Positions 25,254 through 32,210 of a DNA stretch of 64,000 bases are shown here, in pieces; position 1 is the stretch's first letter; the number at the start of each line of letters is the position of its first letter. Source of the stretch: Syntrophomonadaceae bacterium (GTDB lineage: Bacteria; Bacillota; Syntrophomonadia; Syntrophomonadales; Syntrophomonadaceae); contig JAAYRQ010000125.1 in assembly GCA_012518685.1 (NCBI GenBank), forward strand, positions 1 through 64,000, given 5' to 3'. The translations under genes were made by a program, and so were the position numbers. The notes under the pieces are model-generated. The model saw only the letters and a list, made by a program, of their open reading frames with translations. It was not told where the DNA came from and ran no database searches.

Positions 25254-25664
25254 TTGAGCAGACGAAAGGCTAGAGAAGTTGCTTTTAAGGTAATATATCA
25301 AGTTGACATAGTTAAGGCAGATGTAATAGATGCTTTTAAACATACTATAGAAGAGGAAAATTTACCCGATAAGGATAGAGCCTTTGCTTGGCAATTAGTG
25401 TCGGGTTGTTTGGATAACATTGAACTAATCGACAGCAAAATCTCTCATTTTTCTACAGCCTGGGATATAAGTCGTATGCCTTCAGTTGATCGAAATATAT
25501 TACGAATTGGTGCTTATGAAATATTATTTACTGATAGCTCTTTACAAGCAATCCCGATTGATGAGGCCATAGAAGTAGCTAAGAAATATAGTACCGATAA
25601 TTCCCCAGGTTATATAAATGCTATTTTGGATAAAATAAAAGGTGAAAAGGAATGTTCTATCTAG
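25254..25664 (+). CDS. nusB: transcription antitermination factor NusB
   Basis: SRRKAREVAFKVIYQVDI; RMPSVDRNILRIGAYEIL; PIDEAIEVAKKYS. Confidence 0.97.
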   Translation: MSRRKAREVAFKVIYQVDIVKADVIDAFKHTIEEENLPDKDRAFAWQLVSGCLDNIELIDSKISHFSTAWDISRMPSVDRNILRIGAYEILFTDSSLQAIPIDEAIEVAKKYSTDNSPGYINAILDKIKGEKECSI

Positions 25665-26608
25665 GTATTGACACTAGTCTTTATACTACTTCTTTAGCAG
25701 TAGTAGACGAAAAATTTAATATTTTATGGGAAAAAAGAATGCCCCTTACTGTTGAAAAAGGTGAAAGGGGTTTAAGACAATCAGAAGCACTCTTTTATCA
25801 TATTAAAAATCTACCCTTATTATTTCAAGCATTATCTAACCACTTAGAAATTGAATATAAGGCTATAGCTGTCAGTGCTACACCTAGACCTATAGTGGAT
25901 AGTTATATGCCCGTTTTCAAAGCGGGAGAAGCAGTAGCTATTTCACTATGTAGCCTGTTAAGAATTCCTTTGTATTTAGTTAGTCATCAAGAAGGACACA
26001 TTATGGCAGGAATAGCCCATAATCTAGAATTATTAGCTGAAAATGAATTTTTGGCTATTCATTTTTCTGGTGGTACTTCTGAATTACTCCATATTTCAAA
26101 AGGCAAGAGTAATAATTATTTCAAAATAAATGTTAGCTTAGCGGCTCTAGACTTATATGCAGGTCAATTTATTGATCGGATAGGAGTAGCTTTAGGACTG
26201 CCTTTTCCAGCTGGGCAAGAATTAGAAAAACTTGCCCTAAGTGCAACTAATTATAATATTACTATTCCAGCGGCAGTTAAAAAAGAAGGTTTTTCTTTTT
26301 CTGGTGCAGAAACTATGGCAATAAAGTTAATAAAAGAAGGTGTTCCCCGAGCTGAAATTGCCTATGCAGTTTTTAGGAATATTGCAAATTCTATAGAAAA
26401 AGCAATTTTACTAGCTGCTGAAAAACACAAGAATAAAAATGTTTTATTAGTAGGTGGTGTAATGGCTAATTCATTAATTAGAAAAAGATTAAGGGAAAGG
26501 CTAGAACATCCAGCGGTAGGGATGAAATTATATTTTGCTACAGCTCAGTTAAGTACTGATAATGCTGTAGGAATAGCTTTGTTAGGCATGGTTTTAGAAA
26601 CTAAATAA
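25652..26608 (+). CDS. Kae1/TsaD-like protein (O-sialoglycoprotein endopeptidase-like paralogue)
   Basis: LGIDTSLYTTSLAVVD, VSHQEGHIMAG, LLVGGVMAN, TDNAVGIA. Confidence 0.85.
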   Translation: MFYLGIDTSLYTTSLAVVDEKFNILWEKRMPLTVEKGERGLRQSEALFYHIKNLPLLFQALSNHLEIEYKAIAVSATPRPIVDSYMPVFKAGEAVAISLCSLLRIPLYLVSHQEGHIMAGIAHNLELLAENEFLAIHFSGGTSELLHISKGKSNNYFKINVSLAALDLYAGQFIDRIGVALGLPFPAGQELEKLALSATNYNITIPAAVKKEGFSFSGAETMAIKLIKEGVPRAEIAYAVFRNIANSIEKAILLAAEKHKNKNVLLVGGVMANSLIRKRLRERLEHPAVGMKLYFATAQLSTDNAVGIALLGMVLETK

Positions 26609-28154: not shown

Positions 28155-29051
28155 ATGGATTTATCTATTTTTTCACATGAACTTAATATAAGAAAAAAAC
28201 TTATAGAGGATAATTTAGTTAAATGCATAAATATTAATGCTCATCCACCCTCTATTCATGCTGCTATGGAATATGCCCTATTAAATGGTGGCAAAAGGAT
28301 AAGGCCGATTATGGTTTTAGAAGGGGCGAAGTTGGCGGGTATTGATTATAAAAAGATTCTACCAACTGCTTGTGCACTGGAGTTAATACATACTTATTCT
28401 CTAGTGCATGATGACTTACCCGCTATGGATAATGATGAATTACGCAGGGGTAAACCGACCTGTCATATAGAATATGGAGAAGATATAGCTATATTAACTG
28501 GGGATGCACTACTTACTTTGGCTTTTGAGTTATTAGCCAGTAATAGTCAAGTGGTGGGGATAAATAATCTCAATGTAGTTAAGGTTATAAGCGAAGTTGC
28601 GAATGCAGCAGGGAGCCAAGGTATGATTGGTGGACAAGTAATCGACTTGGCTTCTGAAGGTAAAAGCATTGATTACGATAGCTTGCTTAATTTACATAGT
28701 CTTAAAACTGGTAAATTATTTGAGGCTTCCTTAGTTTCTGGAGCAATTTTAGGGGATATGGGTGAAGAAGATATTAAAAAATTAAGAAACTATGCTTATC
28801 ATTATGGTTTGGCCTTTCAAATAACTGATGATATTTTAGATGTAACTGGAGATGTAAGCAAAGTTGGCAAGCCTATAGGCAGTGATGAAAAAAATTTCAA
28901 AACTACTTATCCTACTTTGTTTGGTATAGAAAAATCTAAAGAATTAGCTAAGGTGAATATAGATAAGTGCATTGATAACCTTAATAGTTTTGGTGAAAAG
29001 GCAGATTTTTTAAAAAGTTTGGCAATATATACTTTATTAAGAAACAATTAA
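28155..29051 (+). CDS. ispA: farnesyl diphosphate synthase/polyprenyl synthetase
   Basis: GGKRIRPIMVL, LVHDDLPAMDNDELRRGKPT, FQITDDILDV. Confidence 0.96.
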   Translation: MDLSIFSHELNIRKKLIEDNLVKCININAHPPSIHAAMEYALLNGGKRIRPIMVLEGAKLAGIDYKKILPTACALELIHTYSLVHDDLPAMDNDELRRGKPTCHIEYGEDIAILTGDALLTLAFELLASNSQVVGINNLNVVKVISEVANAAGSQGMIGGQVIDLASEGKSIDYDSLLNLHSLKTGKLFEASLVSGAILGDMGEEDIKKLRNYAYHYGLAFQITDDILDVTGDVSKVGKPIGSDEKNFKTTYPTLFGIEKSKELAKVNIDKCIDNLNSFGEKADFLKSLAIYTLLRNN

Positions 29052-29112
29052 TATTATAATTAAACTAGAACTAATTTTAGAAACTATGTTATAATTACTA
29101 TCTGATAAGAAT

Positions 29113-29690
29113 GCTGGCAAAAGGTTGCAGTATTCTAGTCAACTCTATTGATGTCGAAGACGGGCCTAAAAATCCGTTAAGGGCACATCGATGAAGCTTT
29201 TGGTAGCGGCTTCTGACGCCCAGTTAGGGGTCCTTGCTGGAAGTTAAGGGTAATGGGGCAATCCGCAAAGGCATGCGGGCATGACCCCCTTATCCGTGGA
29301 GGCTCTCTTTGCTTTGGTAAAGGGAGAAAACCTGCATTTGGTGCAAGCTGGGTGCAGTGTAGCCTGCCTTGCGTGGAGACGGCGAATGAGCGTAGGGGGC
29401 ATTACTATCTCGGCCAAGATAGTAACGGCCTGCTCTGAAACCGTATTCTGCAAAAGAGGCTAGACATTGATGTGAGTTGTTGAGGAAAACTCCTAGACTG
29501 TGTGTAGAAATACGCGGTTTGTCGGGGATTAAAGTGTGTACTAAGTGGTAGTCCAGCCTTGCTTTCGGTAACGGAGCAAAGCAAACATAAAGGGAAACCG
29601 CCCATTTGGTAACATTTGGGGGATTTGCTGGGAAAACCTGCTGGACCTAAGTCGCAGTGTTTACTCGATGAACAACCTTTTGCCAGAACT
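29113..29690 (+). ncRNA. ole: OLE (ornate, large, extremophilic) RNA
   Basis: About 580-nt GC-richer non-coding stretch between ispA and a membrane protein gene followed by dxs, the known OLE locus; terminal 14-bp complementary ends CTGGCAAAAGGTTG (29114-29127) / CAACCTTTTGCCAG (29673-29686). Confidence 0.92.
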
Positions 29691-29722
29691 GATTATTTTT
29701 TATCTAAGGGGATATAGCAACT

Positions 29723-30295
29723 TTGTTTAGCTATATAAAAAAAGAAAATTTAATATCTGGATTATTAGTAGCCTTTTTAACATTTTTTATTGCCTTGTTT
29801 GTGAGCTTAGGCTCCGAGGCTTTAGTGCGTGCAGTAAATAGTGTTTTATTGGCTATTGTTTTATTGTTGGGTATAATATTTTTAGGAATATTTTTTGATA
29901 TTATAGGAACTGCTGCTACTGCTGCAAAATTGCCGCCTTTTAATGCTAAGGCGGCAAAAAAAATATATGGGGCAAAACAAGCTGTTAAAATTACTATTAA
30001 TGCGGATAAGGTAGCTAATTTTTGTAATGATGTAATTGGTGATGTGGCAGGTACTTTAAGTGGGGCCATTGGTGCAGGAATTGTAATCAGCCTAGTTAAT
30101 TCTTTTAATTTACTTGACATAGTCTTATTAGGAGCGGTGATGACAAGCTTAATAGCTGCCCTAACAGTAGGCGGAAAAGCCATTGGTAAAAAAATCGCTA
30201 TTAATAAAGCTAATAATATTATTTTAAGGGTAGGAATTATCTTAGCCTGGATTGAAAAAATTACTGGTAAAGAATTGTTTGAGAATAGAAGGTGA
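29723..30295 (+). CDS. oapA: OLE-associated membrane protein OapA-like (TTG start)
   Basis: 190-aa multi-TM protein immediately downstream of OLE RNA and upstream of dxs. Confidence 0.85.
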   Translation: MFSYIKKENLISGLLVAFLTFFIALFVSLGSEALVRAVNSVLLAIVLLLGIIFLGIFFDIIGTAATAAKLPPFNAKAAKKIYGAKQAVKITINADKVANFCNDVIGDVAGTLSGAIGAGIVISLVNSFNLLDIVLLGAVMTSLIAALTVGGKAIGKKIAINKANNIILRVGIILAWIEKITGKELFENRR

Positions 30296-30302
30296 AACAG
30301 AT

Positions 30303-32210
30303 TTGATTTTAGATAGAATAGACTCACCAAAAGAATTAAAAAAACTATCCTTTGCAGAATTAACCGTTTTAGCAAACGAAATTAGGCAGTTATTAGTTGC
30401 TAGTGTTTCACAATGTGGTGGACATTTAGCTGCTAACTTGGGAGTAGTCGAATTAACAATAGCCTTACATAAGGTGTTTGATTTGCCTAATGATAAAATA
30501 ATATGGGATGTAGGACACCAAAGTTATGTCCACAAAATTTTGACAGGCCGTAAAGATAAAATGGATTCCTTAAGACAATACGGGGGGCTTAGTGGATTTC
30601 CCAAGTATGAGGAATCGATTTATGATGCCTTTAATACTGGACATAGTTCTACTTCTATATCTGCAGCCTTAGGTTTTGCCCTAGCGAGAGATATTAATAA
30701 TGATGATTACAAGGTAATTGCAGTGATTGGTGATGGTGCTCTAACTGGAGGTATGGCTTTTGAAGCGTTAAATCATGCGGGACATACTAGTAGTGACTTA
30801 ATAGTCATCTTAAATGATAATGAAATGTCTATTTCTAAAAATGTCGGAGCTATGTCTAGTTATTTGAATCGCTTAAGAACTGACCCTTCTTATGCTAGGA
30901 CTAAAGATGATATAGAACAACTTTTGCAAAAAATCCCTGGAATTGGTCCTAATATCTTAAGGGCAGCTGGTCGCTTTAAAAATACGGTAAAATATATAAT
31001 GGTACCTGGTACTTTATTTGAGGAATTAGGCTTTACTTATATAGGTCCTGTGAATGGACATAATCTTGAAGAACTTAATTTAGTCTTATCTAATGCTAAG
31101 AAAATGAAAGGACCCATACTAATCCATACTATTACCCAAAAAGGCAAAGGGTATGAACCAGCTTTGTTAAACCCCGATATTTTTCATGGGGTAGGACCCT
31201 TTGATATTGATACTGGTAGCCAAGTTAAAAAACCGATTAAGACTTATACCGAATTATTTGGTGAGTTTATGGTGAATAAAGCCCTAGAAGATAAAAAGCT
31301 GGTAGCGATTACTGCCGCGATGACTAGTGGTACAGGCTTAAGCGAATTTGCAAATAAGTTTCCTCATAGATTTTTTGATGTAGGTATATGTGAACAGCAT
31401 GCTGTGACTATGTCAGCAGCTATGGCCAGAGCAGGTTTAAAACCTGTAGTTGCTATATATTCAACTTTTTTACAAAGAGCCTATGATCAATTAATCCATG
31501 ATGTAGCATTGCAGAATTTACCAGTAATTTTTGCCTTGGATAGGGCTGGCTTAGTAGGAGATGATGGGCCTACACATCATGGAGTTTTCGATATTTCTTA
31601 TTTAAGGAGTATTCCCAACTTTACCATAATGGCACCAGCTAATGAGAATGAACTTTTAGATATGTTACATACCTCATTCTATATTGGTGGACCTGTAGCT
31701 ATAAGGTGGCCTAGGGGTGTCGGTGAAGGTGTGCAAATTAATAGTAGCAGAAATACTTTGGATATAGGTAAAATAAAAAGGATAAAAGATGGTGACAATT
31801 TAGCCATTATAGCAGTGGGTAGGGGGGTAAGTATAGCAATTGAAGTAGCTAAGTTACTAAAACAGGCTAGTATAGAAGCAGAAGTAATAGATGCTAGGTA
31901 TATTAAGCCCTTGGATAATGACGGCATTTTAGAAACAGCCAGCAAGGCCAGTTATATTATTACGATTGAAGATAACCTGCTAATGGCGGGGTTTGGTAGC
32001 AGTGTGGTAGAATTGCTTTCGGACTATAATGTAAATGTTAAAGTTCATAGGGTAGGGATTCCCGATGAATTTGTTGAGCATGGAAAAATAGATATACTGT
32101 ATGATTTTTTAGGCATGGATGCTAAATCGATTGTGGAATCTATTAGCACTAAATGGCCTGAACTTTTCGGATCATACTCTTGGGAGTTGCTGAAGTTTGG
32201 AAAAAACTAG
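30303..32210 (+). CDS. dxs: 1-deoxy-D-xylulose-5-phosphate synthase
   Basis: GGHLAANLGVVELTIALHKVF, GDGALTGGMAFEALNHAG, DRAGLVGDDGPTHHGVFD. Confidence 0.97.
   Translation: MILDRIDSPKELKKLSFAELTVLANEIRQLLVASVSQCGGHLAANLGVVELTIALHKVFDLPNDKIIWDVGHQSYVHKILTGRKDKMDSLRQYGGLSGFPKYEESIYDAFNTGHSSTSISAALGFALARDINNDDYKVIAVIGDGALTGGMAFEALNHAGHTSSDLIVILNDNEMSISKNVGAMSSYLNRLRTDPSYARTKDDIEQLLQKIPGIGPNILRAAGRFKNTVKYIMVPGTLFEELGFTYIGPVNGHNLEELNLVLSNAKKMKGPILIHTITQKGKGYEPALLNPDIFHGVGPFDIDTGSQVKKPIKTYTELFGEFMVNKALEDKKLVAITAAMTSGTGLSEFANKFPHRFFDVGICEQHAVTMSAAMARAGLKPVVAIYSTFLQRAYDQLIHDVALQNLPVIFALDRAGLVGDDGPTHHGVFDISYLRSIPNFTIMAPANENELLDMLHTSFYIGGPVAIRWPRGVGEGVQINSSRNTLDIGKIKRIKDGDNLAIIAVGRGVSIAIEVAKLLKQASIEAEVIDARYIKPLDNDGILETASKASYIITIEDNLLMAGFGSSVVELLSDYNVNVKVHRVGIPDEFVEHGKIDILYDFLGMDAKSIVESISTKWPELFGSYSWELLKFGKN

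Follow-up and report, generated by a model that had tools for sequence, protein, structure and literature searches.

OLE is a large structured bacterial RNA, known since 2006, which acts together with a membrane protein when cells respond to stress. To our knowledge, it ranks among the largest conserved RNAs of bacteria that still have no assigned biochemical activity. Three OLE partners, OapA, OapB and OapC, have been shown to be essential in Halalkalibacterium halodurans, and bS21 is a further published partner in the same species. OLE dimerises (PMC12286853), OapA tethers it at the membrane, and cells depend on the ribonucleoprotein (RNP) during cold, alcohol, Mg2+ and poor-carbon stress (PMC12265935). 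A GTDB survey reported 2,822 Bacillota OLE matches (PMC11332333), and the genome considered here or its relatives may well already be among them.

The locus described here lies in a 64,000-nt stretch of DNA (the window) from the draft genome of a Syntrophomonadaceae bacterium. The initial annotation had placed an OLE RNA at positions 29113-29690, and a covariance-model scan of the whole window with Rfam release 15 confirms this identity. OLE (RF01071) is the sole Rfam match in the window; it scores 471.8 bits (E 2.5e-135) against a gathering score of 50, spans 29106..29695 on the + strand and covers all 616 model positions (1-616) with a mean posterior of 0.96. The location therefore stood and the exact ends did not, because the Rfam match is slightly wider. 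Conserved segments of RF01071 are near-perfect, and the fold energy of the region beats 100 of 100 dinucleotide shuffles (z -6.9). The description of OLE as an RNA of anaerobic Firmicutes fits a host in Syntrophomonadaceae. The ole gene is single-copy in this genome (1.93 Mb, 188 contigs). It had also been remarked that the stretch is GC-richer than its surroundings, which holds: its G+C content is 48.8%, compared to 33.6% in ispA, 32.8% in oapA and 33.4% in the whole window, a level reached by <0.1% of 590-nt windows.

The gene neighbourhood is as the initial annotation had described it, with a gene-free stretch in an isoprenoid/recN operon setting and OLE directly upstream of oapA. There is no convincing gene between the end of the ispA open reading frame (29051) and that of the 190-aa protein (29723-30295), which is followed by dxs. 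The upstream neighbour is ispA (farnesyl diphosphate synthase; 28155..29051, + strand; NF045485, E 2.8e-107). Downstream, the longest open reading frame of dxs covers 30252..32210 (+ strand; TIGR00204, E 8.9e-253), and the true start of dxs probably lies further inside it. The surrounding cluster holds isoprenoid, recN and sporulation genes (ispA, dxs, tlyA, NAD kinase, argR, recN, spoIVB, spo0A), and oapA stands in tandem directly downstream of OLE with its start 28 nt past the end of the Rfam match. Elsewhere in the window, a 318-aa open reading frame at 25652-26608, between nusB and xseA, resembles by eye a TsaD/Kae1-type (ASKHA) paralogue. We put the probability that this locus holds a canonical OLE RNA gene of full length, accompanied by its partner oapA in the usual isoprenoid/recN/spo0A cluster, at about 97%.

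The 190-aa protein, which had been proposed to be OapA (OLE-associated membrane protein A; 29723..30295, + strand, TTG start), is identified as such by homology to OLE-adjacent proteins. It aligns over its full length with those of 23 other family genomes (63-79% identity) and with counterparts in more distant Bacillota (Clostridia and Bacillaceae; 38-55% identity); the closest sequences come from Thermosyntropha lipolytica, Syntrophomonas palmitatica and many Syntrophomonas or Syntrophomonadaceae assemblies. Residues D103 and D107 do not vary in any of the 24 family or 38 wider sequences. The PM1 allele changes D100 and D104 of H. halodurans OapA (PMC9723947), to which D103 and D107 may be equivalent by D-x3-D spacing alone, with the H. 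halodurans sequence lying outside the aligned set. An AlphaFold2 model describes OapA as a helical membrane protein (pLDDT 84.5), and its only high-probability PDB fold matches by Foldseek are CNNM/CorB/CorC proteins. The top matches (7m1t, 7m1u and 7cff; probability 0.87-1.00, E 0.05-1.3, TM about 0.49) are non-significant by E-value (0.05). Searches of the window OapA sequence against PDB and Pfam/NCBIfam gave nothing usable, and the Pfam CNNM model matches the OLE-adjacent gene weakly (20-28 bits) in many relatives. Both the predicted CNNM-like fold and the weak Pfam matches are in line with the kinship between OapA and CNNM proteins that has been proposed in the literature (PMC11332333).

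The RNA itself is closed by a terminal helix. Complementarity of its ends over 14 bp had been noticed before, and it is exact: the 5' arm (29114..29127, + strand) and the 3' arm (29673..29686, + strand) are perfect complements that pair in the minimum free energy (MFE) structure. Inverted repeats of at least 14 nt occurred in 2 of 60 first-order resamples (700 nt), so such complementarity alone is only moderately unusual; covariation in relatives makes it convincing. Among 102 extracted OLE loci, 81 were distinct (41 of Syntrophomonadaceae type and 40 others). Terminal-helix cells are paired in 98% of cases in the first group and in 93% in the second, where the arm sequences are quite different; controls for these 40 OLEs gave 33-44% pairing with a slid register and a maximum of 78% in 1000 whole-arm re-deals. 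Six positions of the helix each have three to five standard pair types. Shared ancestry inflates re-deal tests on OLE helices, and it is the number of pair types that, despite this inflation, argues that the helices are real. The compared sequences indicate that the 14-bp end-to-end helix is kept by compensatory change across the 81 distinct OLEs.

Inside the terminal helix, a P3-type helix pairs 29135..29155 (CTAGTCAACTCTATTGATGTC, with a CTAG palindrome near P2) with 29463..29481, both on the + strand; its mean duplex energy in 73 sequences is -16.9 kcal/mol, compared to -8.4 kcal/mol with re-dealt partners. In the Rfam structure line, no pairing is assigned to the first 53 and last 21 positions, and both terminal-helix arms stay unpaired there. 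Family-wide sequences support both the closing terminal helix and the P3-type helix, two features that the Rfam structure annotation lacks. The helix numbering in the literature (P2, P3, P3.1) suggests that both are already drawn in the published model. The names P2/P3 and P4a are applied to the window OLE through a mapping made in this analysis. By this mapping, P4a is the hairpin around CGGGCCUAAAAAUCCG (29159..29178, + strand), which corresponds to an Rfam consensus helix (model positions 54-73), is present in the MFE structure and falls in what we take to be the OapA contact region of the literature. The P5/P5.1 hairpin (29195..29245, + strand; Rfam alignment and MFE structure) has the conserved GGGCACAUCGAUGAAG just 5' of it, and we take this region to be the published k-turn/OapC region, with a putative k-turn in the window. 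The 3' domain (29541..29660, + strand) keeps all hairpins of the Rfam consensus alignment, two of them with GGUAAC (GNRA-type) loops, and presumably contains the counterpart of the published OapB site (P12.2/P13).

Homology searches indicate that the genome encodes all three partners, OapA, OapB and OapC. OapB (88 aa; L039:4429-4695) lies between map and infA and has 7k9b, 'OLE-associated protein B', as its best PDB match (E 5.6e-8). OapC/YbxF (82 aa, with an L7Ae domain; L033:4010-4258) lies between rpoC and rpsL, and YbxF 4lck is among its top PDB matches. We take these two sites to be the positions of ybzG (oapB) and ybxF (oapC) in Bacillus genomes. Presence of OapB and OapC in the host is common, and not universal, among OLE carriers. 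These genes bear on whether the locus could instead encode a reduced 'variant 1 or 2' OLE of the TANB77 or RF39 type, without the OapB site or P7/P8. One shortened hairpin and the small genome would suit such a variant; no Rfam hairpin is missing, the pair of GGUAAC hairpins in the 3' domain among them, and both OapB and OapC are encoded here, whereas variant clades largely lack the two proteins (PMC11332333). We consider a reduced variant very unlikely.

Neither bS21 (rpsU) nor HIT was found in this draft genome. That the OLE RNP naturally does without bS21 here was considered and rejected: bS21 is present in 51 of 54 family genomes, and its expected site here is the end of contig C80, which stops inside the acyl-CoA dehydrogenase gene found ahead of HIT-rpsU in a relative. 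The loci concerned are G000 contig C80 (L127:6482-6637) and L121:2180-2804. With C80 ending at the expected site and HIT also missing, an assembly gap is the likely reason.

An extended -10 element, TGnTATAAT (TGTTATAAT; 29087..29095, + strand), lies about ten bases before the Rfam start and is probably ole's own promoter, judging from its recurrence in relatives. Of 79 loci, 67 have an exact TATAAT in the 70 nt ahead of the OLE core, compared to about 6.5 in mononucleotide shuffles, and it is mostly preceded by TGn. Family-wide sequences support a conserved extended -10 promoter, in keeping with the report that ole has a separate promoter in H. halodurans (PMC9723947). A generic -35/-10 scan did not list the element at 29087-29095. 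Three loci (L014, L049 and L053) have near-matches such as TACAAT or TAAAAT at similar spacing and no exact TATAAT.

Position and orientation would also allow the RNA to be a long structured leader acting in cis on oapA/dxs rather than a free RNA, since oapA follows it directly on the same strand and a scan between the two found no intrinsic terminator. Against this, H. halodurans OLE is an abundant trans-acting RNP component (PMC9723947, PMC12265935), there is covariation in the closing terminal helix, and the genes for OapB and OapC lie far from OLE, so that a cis-acting leader seems very improbable. Least credible of all is a decayed or non-functional remnant, to which the one hairpin shortened by ~20 nt (model positions about 198-240) might point: the match spans 616/616 model positions with high posterior, its conserved segments are near-perfect, neither the terminal nor the P3-type helix is disrupted, the oapA frame is open with its invariant residues kept, and relatives share the same OLE length class.

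With the locus read as a canonical OLE gene, a working scheme can be outlined, in which we infer the transcription, dimer, membrane and RNP steps from published H. halodurans and Clostridium acetobutylicum work. OLE would be transcribed both from a promoter of its own and through read-through, and would fold into a dimer. OapA, a putative reduced CNNM-type transmembrane protein, would hold it at the membrane, and together with OapB and OapC the RNA would form an RNP that the cell needs in cold, alcohol, Mg2+ and carbon-source stress. OLE may further replace the cytoplasmic regulatory domains of MpfA/CorC proteins and so gate divalent-cation transport by OapA, a step to which we give about even odds. 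That OLE supplies OapA with what CBS/CorC domains supply to MpfA has been proposed before (PMC12265935).

No CNNM/MpfA protein was found in this draft genome. If none is truly present, the genome would be a clean case for OLE replacing CBS/CorC domains; the missing protein may also reflect a draft gap, as is likely for bS21. It is doubtful that OapA and OLE form the sole CNNM-type module here, with the RNA regulating the main divalent-cation exporter in place of CBS/CorC domains. Across Syntrophomonadaceae, a strong CNNM match accompanies OLE in about 29 of the 44 genomes that carry the RNA, and a strict exclusion between OLE and MpfA does not hold here. Nearly every OLE-negative genome has a strong CNNM match, a difference that is confounded by incomplete assemblies (Fisher p = 0.05). 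Most family genomes retain a true CNNM/MpfA protein, so OapA-OLE has not simply taken its place in Syntrophomonadaceae. With most genomes carrying both, the OLE-MpfA anticorrelation known from the literature is weak in this family.

OLE occurs in 44 of 54 Syntrophomonadaceae genomes, and its true frequency is probably higher because OapA is present in four of the ten OLE-negative genomes, and in three of these four it sits at the edge of a contig, so that OLE would fall beyond the break. Reading the OLE-negative relatives as true losses was rejected, since several look like contig breaks of this kind. One candidate true loss is G003, one of two OLE-negative genomes that are >90% complete; it is 94% complete, has neither OLE nor OapA and encodes two CNNM proteins.

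The locus is an ordinary, routine full-length OLE locus that adds no new kind of system: the class, operon context and OapA are already published, and the identification is largely expected because nearly all relatives carry OLE. None of the papers searched mentions OLE RNA together with Syntrophomonas. The locus offers a clean set (OLE, OapA, OapB and OapC, with no detected MpfA) in a syntrophic anaerobe. It resembles OLE of H. halodurans and C. acetobutylicum (RF01071) in its full-length covariance match, oapA immediately downstream, the ispA/dxs/recN/spo0A neighbourhood and the encoded OapA, OapB and OapC; a probable promoter of its own is shared with H. halodurans, where one has been reported. 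It differs from both in its A/T-rich terminal helix (CTGGCAAAAGGTTG), which is typical of Syntrophomonadaceae, in a 5' arm whose register is shifted by one base and in a P6 that, by inspection, has no exact CCUCCU anti-Shine-Dalgarno match. One hairpin is shorter than in the Rfam consensus, and the length class of the RNA matches that of relatives. Compared to MpfA/CorC/CorB (CNNM, DUF21) Mg2+ transporters, the predicted OapA fold may resemble the CNNM transmembrane domain, whereas OapA, at only 190 aa, is without the CBS and CorC domains of these proteins.
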